From Acidibrevibacterium fodinaquatile (GTDB lineage: Bacteria; Pseudomonadota; Alphaproteobacteria; Acetobacterales; Acetobacteraceae): a stretch of DNA of 64,000 nucleotides. The stretch is taken from the NCBI RefSeq assembly GCF_003352165.1, contig NZ_CP029176.1, positions 1 to 64,000 on the forward strand, written 5' to 3'. This document shows, piece after piece, positions 1,594 through 32,320 of this stretch (within the stretch, counting starts at the first letter, position 1; each line of letters begins with the position of its first letter). The notes below the pieces were generated by a model. It did no database searches and was not told the origin of the DNA. It saw nothing but the letters and a program-made list of their open reading frames with translations. Made by a program: the position numbers and the translations under genes.

Positions 1594-1698
1594 AGAGCAA
1601 GGTAGGTTTTGATTGAACCATCCTGTTCAATCAAAACCGGCCAACTTGCTCGCCAAAATAGGGGTAGAGCGTGATCGACTTAAACCGATCACGCTCTA
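1594..1698 (+). repeat. 105-bp two-hairpin dispersed repeat, copy 1
   Basis: This copy has two perfect hairpins. The first has a 14-bp stem, 1605-1618 paired with 1625-1638, and a 6-nt loop. The second has a 13-bp stem, 1665-1677 paired with 1686-1698, and an 8-nt loop. A reverse-complement copy with about five differences lies at 13376-13480. Its last three bases (CTA) are the TAG stop, read on the minus strand, of the oxidoreductase gene. It sits between two convergent genes and could act as a bidirectional terminator, but no T-run follows either stem. It resembles a REP- or MITE-like element; no coding capacity. Confidence 0.85.
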
Positions 1699-7065: not shown

Positions 7066-7140
7066 TGCCTCGGCACGGGCAGTGCCGAGGCACTGCCCAA
7101 CGGATAAAAGTTTTTTGGTTCTTTTTTTCAAAAAAGAACC
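7066..7140 (+). repeat. T-rich hairpin repeat, copy A, with GC-rich hairpin (likely pyk terminator)
   Basis: A GC-rich 11-bp stem (7066-7076 with 7082-7092, loop 5 nt) is followed after 17 bases by a T-run and a T/A-rich hairpin (7117-7127 with 7130-7140). The GC stem with the T stretch downstream has the form of a rho-independent terminator for pyk. The same 75-bp composite recurs in reverse orientation at 32247-32320 with only a few changes, and its T-rich half recurs near 10503 and 17231, so it is a dispersed repeat and not a unique terminator. Confidence 0.8.
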
Positions 7141-7245
7141 TCATTTCATACCAACGTCTCCGAGGATTTGGCCGCAAGAAACGGAACGCGTTGGTAGGGG
7201 CGAGGCGTTAGGTGAGCTTCACCAACACGCACAGGAGTCCTTGCC

Positions 7246-10481: not shown

Positions 10482-10502
10482 AGAGGGGAAAGGGAAGAAA
10501 GA

Positions 10503-10534
10503 GGTTCTTTTTTGAAAAAAAGAACCAAAAAACG
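10503..10534 (-). repeat. T-rich hairpin repeat, copy B, between convergent marC-type gene and xthA
   Basis: An 11-bp stem (10503-10513 with 10516-10526) flanked by an A-run. Read on the minus strand, 31 bases are the same as in copy A. It fills the 61-base gap between two convergent genes and may terminate both. No GC-rich partner hairpin is present in this copy. Confidence 0.75.
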
Positions 10535-10542
10535 TTCTCCCG

Positions 10543-11346
10543 TCACGTATCGAACGTCACCGCGACCGGCACGTGATCGGAGGCTTGCGGCCAGTCGCGC
10601 GCGTCTTTCAGCGTGATCTGATCGCGGAGTGCGGGGATAAGATCAGGGGTTGCCCAGACGTGATCGAGCCGTCGGCCACGATCGGAGGCGCGCCAGTCGC
10701 GATTGCGATAGGACCACCAGGTGAAATGCTTTTCCGCCGCCGGGACGAAATGGCGGACCGCATCGATGAAGCCGGTCTCCAGCCACGCCGTCAGCCCCGC
10801 CGTCTCGGGCGGGGTGTGGCTTACGACATCGAGCAATTGGCGATGGCTCCAGACATCGGTCTCGAGGGGCGCGATGTTGAGATCGCCGACGATGACGGTG
10901 CGGGAAAGCGCAGGCTGGGCCGCGAAAAAATCCCGCGCTTGGGCGATGAAGGCGAGCTTGTGGGCGAATTTCGGGTTGGTTGCCGGGTCCGGGACATCGC
11001 CGCCAGCCGGGACATAGAAATCATGGAGAGCGAGCGGCCCGCCCTCGGTCTCGAGGCGGACGGCGAGATGCCGGCAATCGCCCTTGCCGCACCAATCGGG
11101 AAACCCCTCCAGCACCGTGATCGGCCGGCGCGAGAGAATGGCGACACCGTTATAGCTCTTCATGCCGCGATGGGCGATGTGGGGAAAACCGAGCGCCCGC
11201 ACCGCATCCGCCGGAAACAGCGCATCCTCGACCTTGGTCTCCTGAAGGCAAAGCACGTCCGGGTCGAGCGCCGCAACGAGATCGGCCAGACGCGGCAGGC
11301 GAAGACGGAGCGAGTTGATGTTCCAGGTGGCAATGCGCAGACTCAC
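10543..11346 (-). CDS. xthA: exodeoxyribonuclease III
   Basis: The 267-residue protein is an ExoIII-type AP endonuclease / 3'-5' exonuclease acting in base excision repair. It shows the exonuclease-endonuclease-phosphatase fold motifs in order: [10 protein letters not shown] at the start, [10 protein letters not shown] with the metal-binding Glu, [18 protein letters not shown] and the terminal SDHVPV with the catalytic His. I use the GTG at 11346 because it begins directly at the conserved VSLRIATWN and overlaps the stop of the upstream FAH-family gene as GTGA. That overlap indicates translational coupling. Identity is firm. Confidence 0.95.
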
Positions 11347-13375: not shown

Positions 13376-13480
13376 GAGAGCGCGATCGGTTTAAGTCGAT
13401 CACGCTCTACCCCTATTTTGGCGAGCAAGTTAGCCGGTTTTGATGGAACAGGATGGTTCAATCAAACCCTACCTTGCTCT
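13376..13480 (-). repeat. 105-bp two-hairpin dispersed repeat, copy 2
   Basis: Reverse-complement counterpart of 1594-1698, matching along its whole length with about five substitutions, two of them breaking pairs in the stems. Its right edge overlaps the TAG stop (13479-13481 read on the minus strand) of the C26 hydrolase gene. The rest of the 252-base gap 13227-13478 shows no gene. Confidence 0.85.
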
Positions 13481-14261
13481 AGGCCGCCGTGGTTTCGCGC
13501 CTGCCGGCCGGGGCGAGGGCGGCGGCGAAATCGGCGAAAATACGGGCCGAGAGCGGATTGGTCGCGAAATCATACTCCGGATGCCATTGCACGCCGACGG
13601 CGTAGCCGGCTTCCCGGCCATCCGGCCGCGTCACCACCCGCACCGCTTCGATGGTGCCGTCGATCGCCACGGCTTCGACCGCCAAGCCCGGTGCGGGCCG
13701 GTCGATCCCCTGATTATGGAGTGAATTGACGGCGATTTCGGTCGTTCCGGCGAGGCGATGAAGCCAGCCGCCCGGTGTTGCCCGCACCCGATGGGCAAGC
13801 CCGGTGCGCACCGGCGCGAAGGGCTGCAGCGGCGTCGAATGGTCGATATGGCCGGGAAGATCCTGCAGCCGCTGATGCAGCGTGCCGCCGAGTGCGACGT
13901 TCAGCTCCTGCAAGCCGCGGCAGATCGCGAGCACCGGCATGCCGGCGGCGATCGCGGCGCGGAGCAGCGGCAGCGTCGTCGCGTCGCGGGCAGGGTCTTC
14001 GGGCGCGCCCTCCGGCTGTGGCGGGCCGCCGTAATTCTCCGGCGCGACGTTGGAGCGGCTGCCAGTGAAGATCAGCCCGTCGAGCCGGGCGAGCAGGGCG
14101 GCGATGTCGGCCTCGGCGCCATTGGCCGGGATCAAGAGCGGCACCCCGCCCACCACCCGATCCACCGCCCGGACATAGGTGTCAGAGGCAGCGTGGTTCG
14201 GCATGCCGTAGATGCCGAAGGTTTTCATGCAGCAGGAAATGCCGATCAGAGGTTTCATCAT
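13479..14261 (-). CDS. class I glutamine amidotransferase-like gamma-glutamyl hydrolase (peptidase C26)
   Basis: The 260-residue protein belongs to the C26 family that includes PuuD (gamma-glutamyl-GABA hydrolase). Visible are KPLIGIS at the start, DGLIFTGSRSNVAP, the nucleophile elbow AICRGLQELNV with the catalytic Cys, the VNSLHNQ motif and GVQWHPEYD with the catalytic His. The likely reaction is hydrolysis of a gamma-glutamyl amide in the cytosol; the substrate is not known. I use the ATG at 14261 (a second ATG follows directly); no clear ribosome site precedes it. The TAG stop lies at the edge of the 105-bp repeat. It follows lolA by 52 bases on the same strand. Confidence 0.88.
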   Translation of the reverse strand: MMKPLIGISCCMKTFGIYGMPNHAASDTYVRAVDRVVGGVPLLIPANGAEADIAALLARLDGLIFTGSRSNVAPENYGGPPQPEGAPEDPARDATTLPLLRAAIAAGMPVLAICRGLQELNVALGGTLHQRLQDLPGHIDHSTPLQPFAPVRTGLAHRVRATPGGWLHRLAGTTEIAVNSLHNQGIDRPAPGLAVEAVAIDGTIEAVRVVTRPDGREAGYAVGVQWHPEYDFATNPLSARIFADFAAALAPAGRRETTAA

Positions 14262-14313
14262 GCAAGACCGATGGGATCGCCCGCGATTATGGCGGCATTG
14301 CGGCGGGCGGCGG

Positions 14314-14964
14314 TTATCGCTTGGGGCCGGTCGGTGGGGTTGGGGTGACCTTGAACTCAAACAACGCGTCGGGGAACTGGCCGCCGATCTCGATATCGCT
14401 GAGGCTGACGCGGGTTTCGCGCCGCTGCTCGTCGAGCACGATCCATTGCCGGAGCAAAAGCGGATCGGTGTCGAAAGCGAGGCTCAGCGAGCCTTGCCAC
14501 CAGCGCTCGGCGCGCAGCACCGTCACCTGGATCAGGCCGGGGACGCGGGTGATATCGGTGATCAGAATGTTGCCCGAGAGCTTGATCTCGGGGGCGAGAA
14601 TGATCGAAAGCGGCGTATCGCCGAGGGCGACCTCGCTGGTCTGGCCGAGCTGACGGTCGTTGAAATAGACGTCACCATGATTGGCGACCAGAAGATAGGG
14701 CACTGGCGGGTCGTATTCGAAGCGGAGTTTGCCCGGCCGATCGATCCAGGCGGTGCCGTGGCTGTCGCTGCCATCTGGCGCGATCTGCTCGAAACGCGCT
14801 TTCAGGGTGTGGATGGCGTTGAGATAGGCCTCGATACGCGCGATATCGGCGCGATCCTGCGCGGTCAGCGTCATGGCGCTGATCGCGCTGGCGCGGCGCG
14901 CAAGGAGGAGGGGGGCGAGGGTAAGGCATGCGAGAGCGGCGCGGCGGGCGATCATGTCGCGCAT
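14314..14964 (-). CDS. lolA: outer-membrane lipoprotein carrier protein LolA
   Basis: LolA shuttles lipoproteins through the periplasm from LolCDE to the outer membrane. The product (216 residues from ATG 14964) starts with a signal peptide, RRAALACLTLAPLLLARRASA. The body has the LolA-type pattern: LTAQDRADIARIEAYLNAI, LKARFEQIAPDG, the GTAWIDRPGKLRFEYDPP segment, and the strands LLVANHGDVYFND and PLSIIL. A further in-frame ATG at 14955 and an upstream one at 14985 exist; the first two both leave a good signal sequence. It is the middle gene of a leftward group: small winged-helix-like gene, lolA, C26 hydrolase. In the alphaproteobacteria LolA is often annotated as an outer-membrane lipoprotein carrier without a LolB partner. 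Confidence 0.9.
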   Translation of the reverse strand: MRDMIARRAALACLTLAPLLLARRASAISAMTLTAQDRADIARIEAYLNAIHTLKARFEQIAPDGSDSHGTAWIDRPGKLRFEYDPPVPYLLVANHGDVYFNDRQLGQTSEVALGDTPLSIILAPEIKLSGNILITDITRVPGLIQVTVLRAERWWQGSLSLAFDTDPLLLRQWIVLDEQRRETRVSLSDIEIGGQFPDALFEFKVTPTPPTGPKR

Positions 14965-17224: not shown

Positions 17225-17230
17225 AACGGA

Positions 17231-17266
17231 CAAAAGTTTTTTGGTTCTTTTTTTTCAAAAAAGAAC
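17231..17266 (+). repeat. T-rich hairpin repeat, copy C, between convergent genes
   Basis: T-run followed by a 10-bp stem, 17244-17253 with 17257-17266. About 40 bases match copy A with two extra Ts. It lies in the 49-base gap between the HAD gene and the leftward glycosyltransferase operon and probably serves as their shared 3' end. Confidence 0.75.
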
Positions 17267-17273
17267 GCGCTTC

Positions 17274-18554
17274 CTACCCTCTTCTTCCCGCCTTCGCCCG
17301 CGCGCGACGTGATGACGGGGCGAGCATTTCCGGCCGCGTCCCGGAGAGGCGCTCGATCAACCCGGCCATCGCGTCGAGATAATCGGCCATCGCGAGATGG
17401 CGTTCGGCATAGCGGCGCGCATTGGCGCGCAGGCGCGCCGAGAGCGCGCGGTCCTCGAGCACCGTGAGCACCCGCTCGGCGAGCCCGGCGGGGTCGAGGA
17501 AGGGGGTGAGGAGGCCGTTTTCGCCGTCGCGGATGAATTCGCGCACCGGCTCGGTATCGCTGCCGATCACCGCGCAGCCGCTGGCCAGCGCCTCGCGCAG
17601 CGACCAGGAGGCGACGAACGGGTAGGTGAGATAGACATGCGCGTCCGAGCGCTGCAAAAGCCGCCGGTAATCGCCGTAATCGATGCGCCCGACGAGATGG
17701 ACGCGGCGCTCGTCGAGCGAGGCTTTCACTTCATTGAAAAAAAAGTCCCGCCAGGTGCCATTGGCAAGCTTGGCGCCGTAGCTCACGCCGTCGCCGCCGA
17801 CCAGGATGACGCGGAGATCGCGCCGCGCGCGGAAAAGATGCGGCAACGCCCGCATCATGATGTGATAGCCGCGATAGGGTTCGAGATCGCGGGCGACGAA
17901 GGTCACCAGCTTTTCCCCTGGCGCGACGGTAACGTCCTTGAGCGCGAACGGGGTTTGCGCCGCCAGGGGGTCGGGCTGGCAGAGTTCGAGATCGGCGCCC
18001 TCGGGGACGATGGTGATGCGCGGGCGCGCCCATTCGGGGTAGGTCGCGTGCTGAAAGCGGGTCGGCGTCTGGCCATGGCCGGGGAGGTTGAGCGCCAGCA
18101 GATTGACCGTGTTCTTGACCCGGATATTGGACAGCATCTGGGGCGCGGTCGGAAACTCAGGGTCGAAGCCGACATCGAGCCCGTCAGTGTGATAGAAAAA
18201 CTCGAAATAGCCGAGCATCGGCACGCCCGGCCAGATGTCGCAGAGATCGAGCATTTCGCCCCAGCCGTGATGGCCGATGATGATGTCGGGCTGAAAGCCG
18301 AGCCCGCGCAATTGCGCGGCGGCCCGCGCCACCGCTTCGGCGCGGATCATCGCCGGCTCGAGTTCGCGCAAGTTGCGGTGCGCGTCCTGGCTCGGCTCGC
18401 GGCCGAGGCGATAGACGAGCTTGCGCACCCCAGCAATCATATTCTGGTTGTCGTCGGTCAGAAATAGAATTTCGTGCCGCTTCGTCGCCGCCAGATAGCG
18501 CAGCAGATGAAGATATTGGCCGGGGAAATTCTGGTGGACGAAGAGGAATTTCAC
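17274..18554 (-). CDS. GT4-type glycosyltransferase
   Basis: The 426-residue protein is a GT-B fold glycosyltransferase of the GT4 type, retaining, cytosolic or membrane-peripheral. N-terminal FLFVHQNFPGQY is a characteristic opening of one GT4 branch. The middle has IIIGHHGWGEM and IVPEGADLELC. The C-terminal domain has FVARDLEPYRGYHIMM, ILVGGDGVSYG and the donor-binding stretch FVASWSLREALASGCAVIGSDTE split over 325-350. The tail is basic. It is the last gene of the six-gene leftward secretion/glycosylation operon, nine bases after the ChW-like gene. Donor and acceptor are unknown; from context it may modify the exported product or a surface glycan. Confidence 0.88.
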   Translation of the reverse strand: MKFLFVHQNFPGQYLHLLRYLAATKRHEILFLTDDNQNMIAGVRKLVYRLGREPSQDAHRNLRELEPAMIRAEAVARAAAQLRGLGFQPDIIIGHHGWGEMLDLCDIWPGVPMLGYFEFFYHTDGLDVGFDPEFPTAPQMLSNIRVKNTVNLLALNLPGHGQTPTRFQHATYPEWARPRITIVPEGADLELCQPDPLAAQTPFALKDVTVAPGEKLVTFVARDLEPYRGYHIMMRALPHLFRARRDLRVILVGGDGVSYGAKLANGTWRDFFFNEVKASLDERRVHLVGRIDYGDYRRLLQRSDAHVYLTYPFVASWSLREALASGCAVIGSDTEPVREFIRDGENGLLTPFLDPAGLAERVLTVLEDRALSARLRANARRYAERHLAMADYLDAMAGLIERLSGTRPEMLAPSSRRARAKAGRRG

Positions 18555-32232: not shown

Positions 32233-32246
32233 GGGCCAGAAAGATA

Positions 32247-32320
32247 GTTCTTTTTTGAAAAAAAGAACCAAAAAACTTTTCCCGTGGGGCAGTGCCTGCG
32301 GCACTGCCCGTGCTGAGGCA
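32247..32320 (-). repeat. T-rich hairpin repeat, copy D, with GC-rich hairpin
   Basis: Reverse-orientation copy of the 75-bp composite at 7066-7140, differing at only a few positions. The T-rich stem is 32247-32256 with 32259-32268; the GC-rich stem is 32287-32296 with 32300-32309. As a terminator it would face the minus strand, yet both flanking genes (holC, pyrF) run rightward. Its orientation therefore does not follow the genes. Confidence 0.8.

Follow-up and report, generated by a model that had tools for sequence, protein, structure and literature searches.

The genome analysed here, which judging from its sequence probably belongs to a bacterium of the family Acetobacteraceae, carries 63 near-identical copies of a short two-hairpin repeat, and in most of the complete copies one edge of the repeat is the stop codon of a neighbouring gene. 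We consider it quite likely that this element is a MITE mobilised in trans by an IS630-subgroup transposase, and that it inserts at the TA of YTAR sites, rebuilds the stop codons it enters and is hence close to neutral at gene ends. The element mostly lands in existing stops rather than giving a stop to a gene that had none.

The element, its copies and its edges

The window, a 64-kb stretch of DNA, opens at dnaA of a 3.9-Mb chromosome (contig C1; the assembly comprises 4.04 Mb in 4 contigs) and contains two copies of the element. An earlier note, made from the letters alone, had placed a 105-bp element at 1594-1698 and 13376-13480 in opposite orientation, one edge of each copy forming the TAG of a quinone oxidoreductase and of a C26 hydrolase gene. 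The repeat and its orientation stand, the copies appearing as 104-nt arms (1594-1697 and 13377-13480) that are 96% complementary, and both reading frames end exactly at one edge; the core measures 102 bp (1595-1696 and 13378-13479). The features of the two loci are the following.

31-1551, + strand: dnaA, upstream neighbour of copy 1, outside the element; frame open from base 1
1593-1594, no strand: dinucleotide on the left flank of copy 1, GA by decay, where 48 of 52 complete copies have TA
1595-1696, + strand: element copy 1, 102-bp core GAGC...GCTC (sequence reading, alignment of copies)
1595-1651, + strand: hairpin 1 of copy 1 (fold, consensus structure)
1665-1698, + strand: hairpin 2 of copy 1, flanking TA included (fold, terminator scan, consensus structure)
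1696-1698, - strand: TAG stop of the quinone oxidoreductase gene, made of the last element base and the flanking TA
1696-2697, - strand: quinone oxidoreductase / zinc-binding dehydrogenase gene (PF00107, PF13602, PF08240)
13376-13377, no strand: flanking dinucleotide of copy 2, likewise decayed (+ strand, GA)
13378-13479, - strand: element copy 2, 102-bp core in opposite orientation (alignment of copies)
13376-13409, - strand: hairpin 2 in copy 2 (position from the alignment with copy 1)
13423-13479, - strand: hairpin 1 in copy 2 (position from the alignment with copy 1)
13479-13481, - strand: TAG stop of the Peptidase_C26 gene, made of the last element base and the flanking TA
13479-14360, - strand: Peptidase_C26 (gamma-glutamyl hydrolase-like) gene, start uncertain (PF07722)

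Folded as a single strand, copy 1 forms the two hairpins that had been claimed for it (-54.3 kcal/mol, z = -8.8; none of 200 shuffles was as stable). Hairpin 1 spans 57 nt (GAGCAAGG...CTTGCTC) and is followed by a 13-nt spacer; the hairpin-2 arm of the core reads GAGCGTGATCG...CGATCGCGCTC. A search of the window against Rfam gave 0 matches at the gathering score, and an RNA family was dropped as the identity of the element.

With at most 3 mismatches, the hairpin-1 core pattern occurs 63 times in the genome (35 forward, 28 reverse), always on contig C1, and the reversed control pattern gave 0 matches in the same genome. The hairpin-2 pattern matches 54 times, one copy being counted on both strands, and includes a lone hairpin 2 without hairpin 1 at 3821397. 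Both ends are present in 53 copies, with a mean identity of 97.6% to a consensus, and the right end is broken in 10. Two of the 53 have identical flanks and were counted once, giving 52 non-redundant complete copies. The copies at C1:3074250-3074354 and C1:3321498-3321602 share their flanks over 60 bases or more to either side and hence belong to a larger stretch present twice, some 247 kb apart.

The terminal inverted repeats read GAGC...GCTC, and the extended similarity GAGCNNGNTNGGTTT fits both ends in most copies. Among the 52 copies, TA flanks the left end in 48 and the right end in 50, a pyrimidine (C or T) precedes the left TA in 47 of these 48, defining a YTAR target, and the right edge reads TAG in 41/52 and TAA in 9/52. 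The inverted hexamers TAGAGC...GCTCTA of the earlier note hold as the family consensus; in the window itself one end of each copy is decayed, copy 1 beginning GAGAGC at 1593 and copy 2 at 13376. The same GA in place of the left TA is found in 5 of the 63 copies (1606, 1222660, 1299169, 1767259, 2119471), which share no other variant seen by eye, a pattern that hints at something beyond chance mutation of a single site. Copy 2417849 has TA at its left edge and TG at its right, where the sister sequence reads TGA. In 169 kb (the window and loci L031-L041, element copies included), CTAG is found 53 times where trinucleotides predict 113, and CTAA 22 times where they predict 76; CTAG is rarer than expected although element edges favour it.

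Several copies have themselves received insertions. The hairpin-2 loop holds an IS in the copies at 1416214 and 3716837 (868 extra bases, TTA repeated at the junction), and at 910080-910310 it is occupied by another two-hairpin repeat, which adds 125 bases. This second short repeat, TACCAGCC...GGTA (about 125 extra bases), lies inside the hairpin-2 loop of two copies (C1:910080-910310 and near 2424040, loci L069 and L075) and abuts two others; judged by eye, its ends are similar to those of the genome's ATACCAACC-type IS630 elements. For these later insertions, the uninterrupted copies represent the empty sites. The tandem copies at 871654 and 871758 have one TA in common, which fits an insertion of the element into its own CTAG edge.

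IS630-type elements with matching ends

The IS630-type domain PF13358 (DDE_3) has 22 matches in the source genome, 21 of them above the cut-off. Two abundant IS630 types of this genome have other ends, ATACCAACC and GTGCTTTG, and were rejected as the source of the element's ends (one end of each matches at 4-7 of 18 bases). A further insertion sequence of 1,052 bp, at C1:3519684-3520735, encloses a PF13358 match (C1:3520210-3520632) and has TAGAGC...GCTCTA ends, its terminal sequences being TAGAGCATGATTTC and TAGAGCGTGATAGC. It agrees with one variant of the element end at 15/18 bases and with the commonest at 14/18. Two observations in this genome count against the proposed model: the reading frame of that insertion sequence lies in two overlapping pieces, and a second GAGC-ended IS630-type element (locus L086, ends TAGAGCGGTTTCA) matches the element poorly beyond GAGC (8-10/18).

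Closer ends occur in other genomes. A search of 150 genomes of the family, the source included, found the transposase in 54, and 13 of the 30 IS630-type loci fetched, the source genome's own included, carry TAGAGC...GCTCTA 1,050-1,081 bp apart. The ends of two of them (L240 and L243) agree at 17/18 bases with right-end variants of 2 and 5 of the 53 copies, and at 16/18 with the commonest right end (35/53 copies). A transposase family with matching ends, as the earlier note had suggested looking for, therefore exists, with up to 17/18 bases in other genomes and 15/18 in the source genome. Together with the 102-bp core, the 63 near-identical copies and the inverted ends, these IS630-type ends bear out its description of the repeat as MITE-like.

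On this basis, the mobiliser would be the transposase of an IS630-family subgroup whose elements measure about 1,050 bp and begin TA-GAGC, those closest to the element reading GAGC(A/G)NGAT near their end. The element would insert into the TA within YTAR and come to be flanked by TA on both sides. Given the outer bases G...C of the element, insertion into a TAA or TAG stop, at its TA, would rebuild TAG at the left edge for a gene running in from the left; the right edge would symmetrically rebuild TAG for a gene arriving from the right, and a single insertion could keep the stops of two convergent genes. With the stop rebuilt at either edge, insertions at gene ends would be almost neutral and would accumulate there.

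Stop codons at the edges, here and in sister genomes

Genes were called with our own hexamer caller trained on this genome, not with a standard program. In 31 of the 52 non-redundant complete copies a called gene uses an edge TAG as its stop, in 3 of them on both sides, so the link between edge and stop codon holds in a genome-wide tabulation, and the proposal that the element puts a TAG on the outgoing strand whichever way round it inserts is supported. When the element was removed in silico from these 52 copies, 32 of the restored sites were stop sites, 15 intergenic and 5 coding; copy 1222660 is counted among the reconstructed stop sites, although its edge forms no stop as the sequence now stands. 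The 102 control YTAR sites elsewhere in the sampled DNA comprised 9 stop, 54 intergenic and 39 coding sites, and the ratio of stop to intergenic sites differs accordingly (32:15 against 9:54, Fisher p = 8e-9). Control sites came from about 169 kb or, for the test within convergent and tandem pairs and the G+C comparison, from element-free intergenic regions of fetched loci. YTAR stops are not rare in control genes (22/231).

Counting complete and broken non-redundant copies, 40 genes that run into the element stop at its edge and 10 inside it, 4 of the latter at broken right ends. With these counts, and with the same codon in use in sister genomes, edge stops as chance truncations were rejected.

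The element was searched for in 60 genomes, the source included, and matched in three others: G001, with one copy, and G009 and G028, with diverged relatives. The sister species G002-G005 gave no copy at E 0.001. The single copy of G001 has an IS inserted in it and lies on a contig about 99.4% identical to the source genome. Other long matches between G001 and the source genome are 79-90% identical, and one 98%, compared with about 99.4% for that contig (C164; L042, L085), whose near-identity reflects either recent transfer or contamination of a draft genome. Plasmid spread of the exact element was rejected, as it has no match at E 0.01 among 72,556 plasmid records. A different, terminator-like repeat, AAAAGTTTTTTGGTTCTTTTTTTCAAAAAAGAACC, lies at 7066-7150 of the window, with similar stretches at 10498-10543, 17225-17301 and 32238-32280; a stretch of about 70 bases of it occurs, among the matches listed, more than 12 times in each of G001, G002, G003 and G005 (85-98% identity) and once in G004.

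The sister DNA read comprised about 1.57 Mb of G002, about 0.47 Mb of G005 and loci for the remaining gene ends, the sister stop being taken from G002 by preference and then from G005. The sites read in G002-G005 carry no element and are the empty sites anticipated in relatives. At complete and broken copies together there are 41 edge genes, 35 of which have an orthologue in a sister. Thirty of these 35 end at the same codon there; the 5 that do not include 2952296, which lies in a repeat. The stop thus predates the element in most cases, which qualifies the claim that the element supplies stop codons: the edge TAG is indeed the gene's stop, but the gene mostly stopped there already. The window genes follow this pattern. 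The quinone oxidoreductase gene ends in TAG in G005 and G001 and in TGA in G002, G003 and G004, and the Peptidase_C26 gene in TAA in G005 and in TGA in G002 and G003 (G004 is unalignable there), in each case with no element following.

The identity of the sister stops is less readily explained. At the 30 edge genes the sister stop is TGA in 19, TAA in 5 and TAG in 6, whereas for control genes with a TAA or TAG of their own it is TGA in 8/36 and TAA or TAG in 28/36 (Fisher p = 0.001), these controls being unmatched for the base before the stop (a pyrimidine precedes 1 of 17 control TAG stops). The TGA excess persists within strata defined by the base that follows the opposite TA (6:2 against 6:14, p = 0.044; 8:5 against 2:15, p = 0.007), and at seven edge genes TGA is found in both G002 and G005. 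The share of TGA fell as data were added, from 12 of 15 gene-by-sister pairs to 19 of 30 genes. The flanks, with TA on both sides of nearly all copies, are suggestive of a target-site duplication, but a pure TA-target model predicts fewer TGA stops in the sisters than were seen, and we count this anomaly against that model.

Either TGA changed to TAA or TAG before the insertion, or the insertion itself brings the TA. In the second case, the element would rewrite stops: it would land on TGA or another Y-R dinucleotide, and its own TA at both ends, belonging to the element and not copied from the target, would turn TGA into TAG. Besides the TGA excess, three non-stop sites (2669423, 1247954 and 726435) argue for this, as the sister reads TG or CA opposite the TA, although two of the three fall into the coding class, in which control TA sites, too, have a TA in the sister only in 12/59. 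Against it, the sister has TAA or TAG at 11 of the 30 genes. Where a site can be aligned across, the sister reads TA in 6/14 comparisons (TG, CA, CG or a gap in the rest), and in 5/9 of the stop-class comparisons, some with gapped alignments; among other non-stop sites, it reads TA at 1078712 and CG at 2007015. A change from TGA to TAA is a single substitution that could have come before the insertion, and we know of no IS630-type mechanism that swaps out the target dinucleotide. We therefore regard stop rewriting as unlikely and retain insertion at an existing TA.

A preference for gene ends could also arise if the element were actively targeted there, to sites opened by terminating ribosomes or at transcription ends, or by a wider sequence context, instead of harmless insertions surviving. 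The excess over other non-coding YTAR sites is indeed seen even inside intergenic regions of one type, with ratios of stop to intergenic sites of 24:7 against 2:9 in convergent gene pairs (p = 9e-4) and of 8:6 against 13:54 in tandem pairs (p = 0.007), and the target flanks (20+20 bases) are G+C-rich, at 0.66 compared with 0.55 at control intergenic sites. Stops, however, adjoin G+C-rich coding DNA (control stops, 0.62), so that G+C context alone could yield part of the excess, and purifying selection against insertions in promoters and coding sequence is a simpler cause. Active targeting thus strikes us as improbable, and near-neutrality at gene ends as the better account.

Least probable, in our judgement, is that the element works at gene ends as a bidirectional terminator or mRNA-stabilising hairpin and is kept there by selection, its position reflecting use and not landing. 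Such a role would suit the location of 35 of the 52 complete copies between convergent genes (18 of 131 control gene pairs are convergent), as well as the report, in the part of PMC5082802 consulted, of palindromic repeats in 3' UTRs of convergent Bradyrhizobium genes. Both hairpins are moreover conserved across genera: relatives in G009, G028 and Acidiphilium iwatense share the two-hairpin plan though their hairpin-1 arms differ, and 11 of 37 pairs in a consensus structure of seven rows are changed on both sides, with several pairs broken in 2 or 3 rows. A terminator scan picks up hairpin 2 read inward from the outer edge, where it is weakly terminator-like, so some use of it at gene ends may exist. 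Yet G002-G005 do without a copy while their orthologues end at the same codon, copies carry stem changes uncompensated on the other arm, one of them common to many copies (GTTCCATC), no T-run follows hairpin 1 (GCCAAAATAGG), and the position is base-exact to the stop codon, which termination does not require.

Relatives and known repeat systems

The hairpin-1 sequence was also matched in A. iwatense and in a MAG. In G009, which is of another genus, a called gene stops at the left edge in all 5 distinct loci, and in one of them also at the right edge. A stop fits in only 2 of 6 loci of G028 and not at the one A. iwatense copy, both of which count against the proposed model; in all three genomes genes were called with the caller trained on the source genome. 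A rhizobial palindrome matched 16 plasmid records at E 1e-6 and 56 at E 0.01. We opened 21 of the 56, at our own choice; 6 regions have no annotated gene in the stretch and one repeats the locus of another (H26 and H15), leaving 14 loci, in 6 of which an annotated CDS ends exactly at the palindrome's first base and in 8 of which there is no fit; these 8 likewise count against the model.

Alphaproteobacteria were already known decades ago to carry two-hairpin repeats of about 105 bp. The element has the plan of the CIR type, two inverted repeats with a linker in some 105-110 bp. CIR, from Caulobacter and other alphaproteobacteria (Chen and Shapiro 2003, as described in the relevant part of PMC2229807), is about 110 bp long, with two long inverted repeats and a linker, and is intergenic, like the element. 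It carries the methylation site GANTC in a hairpin loop, which occurs in 0 of the 53 complete copies of the source genome, nor is it found in the A. iwatense copy or in G009 locus L043; GANTC is present in hairpin 1 of the relatives in G028 and in G009 locus L047, and in 3/3 rhizobial loci scanned. The likeness to CIR is one of description, and the YTAR edge motif and IS630-type ends were found in the element; the same review states, in its section on CIR, that the mobility of CIR needs more information (PMC2229807). Bru-RS1 and Bru-RS2 of Brucella are palindromic repeats of 103-105 bp and hot spots for IS711, which has a YTAR target, as set out in parts of PMC2266754 and PMC2267715; similarly, several copies of the element hold an IS or a second short repeat in the hairpin-2 loop. 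Brucella belongs to a different bacterial order from the source, the likeness is again by description, and those parts of PMC2266754 and PMC2267715 leave the mobilising transposase unnamed.

In its mode of action the element would be comparable to RUP of Streptococcus pneumoniae with IS630-Spn1, and in looks it resembles CIR and Bru-RS. According to parts of PMC2229807 and PMC3049150, RUP is a 107-bp MITE with a TA target and IS630-like ends that is enriched between convergent genes, like the element; it differs in belonging to another phylum and in being one folded unit, compared with the element's two hairpins, and base-exact landing in stop codons on both sides is absent from these partial accounts. 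BOX, from the same species, encodes in 36 cases a gene's stop codon at its 3' end (PMC3049150), but this stop lies inside the BOX sequence, and the passages on BOX in that source describe no rebuilding of the target's stop at both edges. REP/BIME repeats with RAYT, palindromes of 20-40 bp tagged with GTAG or CGTC, are not suggested by the element's size, TA edges and IS630-type ends. IS870 of Agrobacterium is an IS630-type element whose CTAG target helps to form a stop codon. That stop serves the gene of the insertion sequence itself, whereas the element's stops serve host genes outside it. Searches of an open-access library, with the primary RIME, CIR and Bru-RS papers outside their scope, turned up no description of two-hairpin repeats landing in stop codons on both sides.

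A bolder combination of these readings, which we offer as speculation and think doubtful, is that the element turns TGA stops into TAG, on both strands where genes converge, and that the two-hairpin repeats of alphaproteobacteria (CIR-, Bru-RS- and RIME-like) form one class of IS630-moved MITEs shaped for landing in stop codons. The more conservative model, insertion at the TA of existing stops, brings together in one element a YTAR edge motif, a transposase family with matching ends and a reason for harmless spread. Should this way of landing prove general, edges of mobile repeats would underlie many of the gene ends annotated in this class of bacteria, which would bear on the annotation of 3' ends, on convergent transcription and on stop-codon usage.
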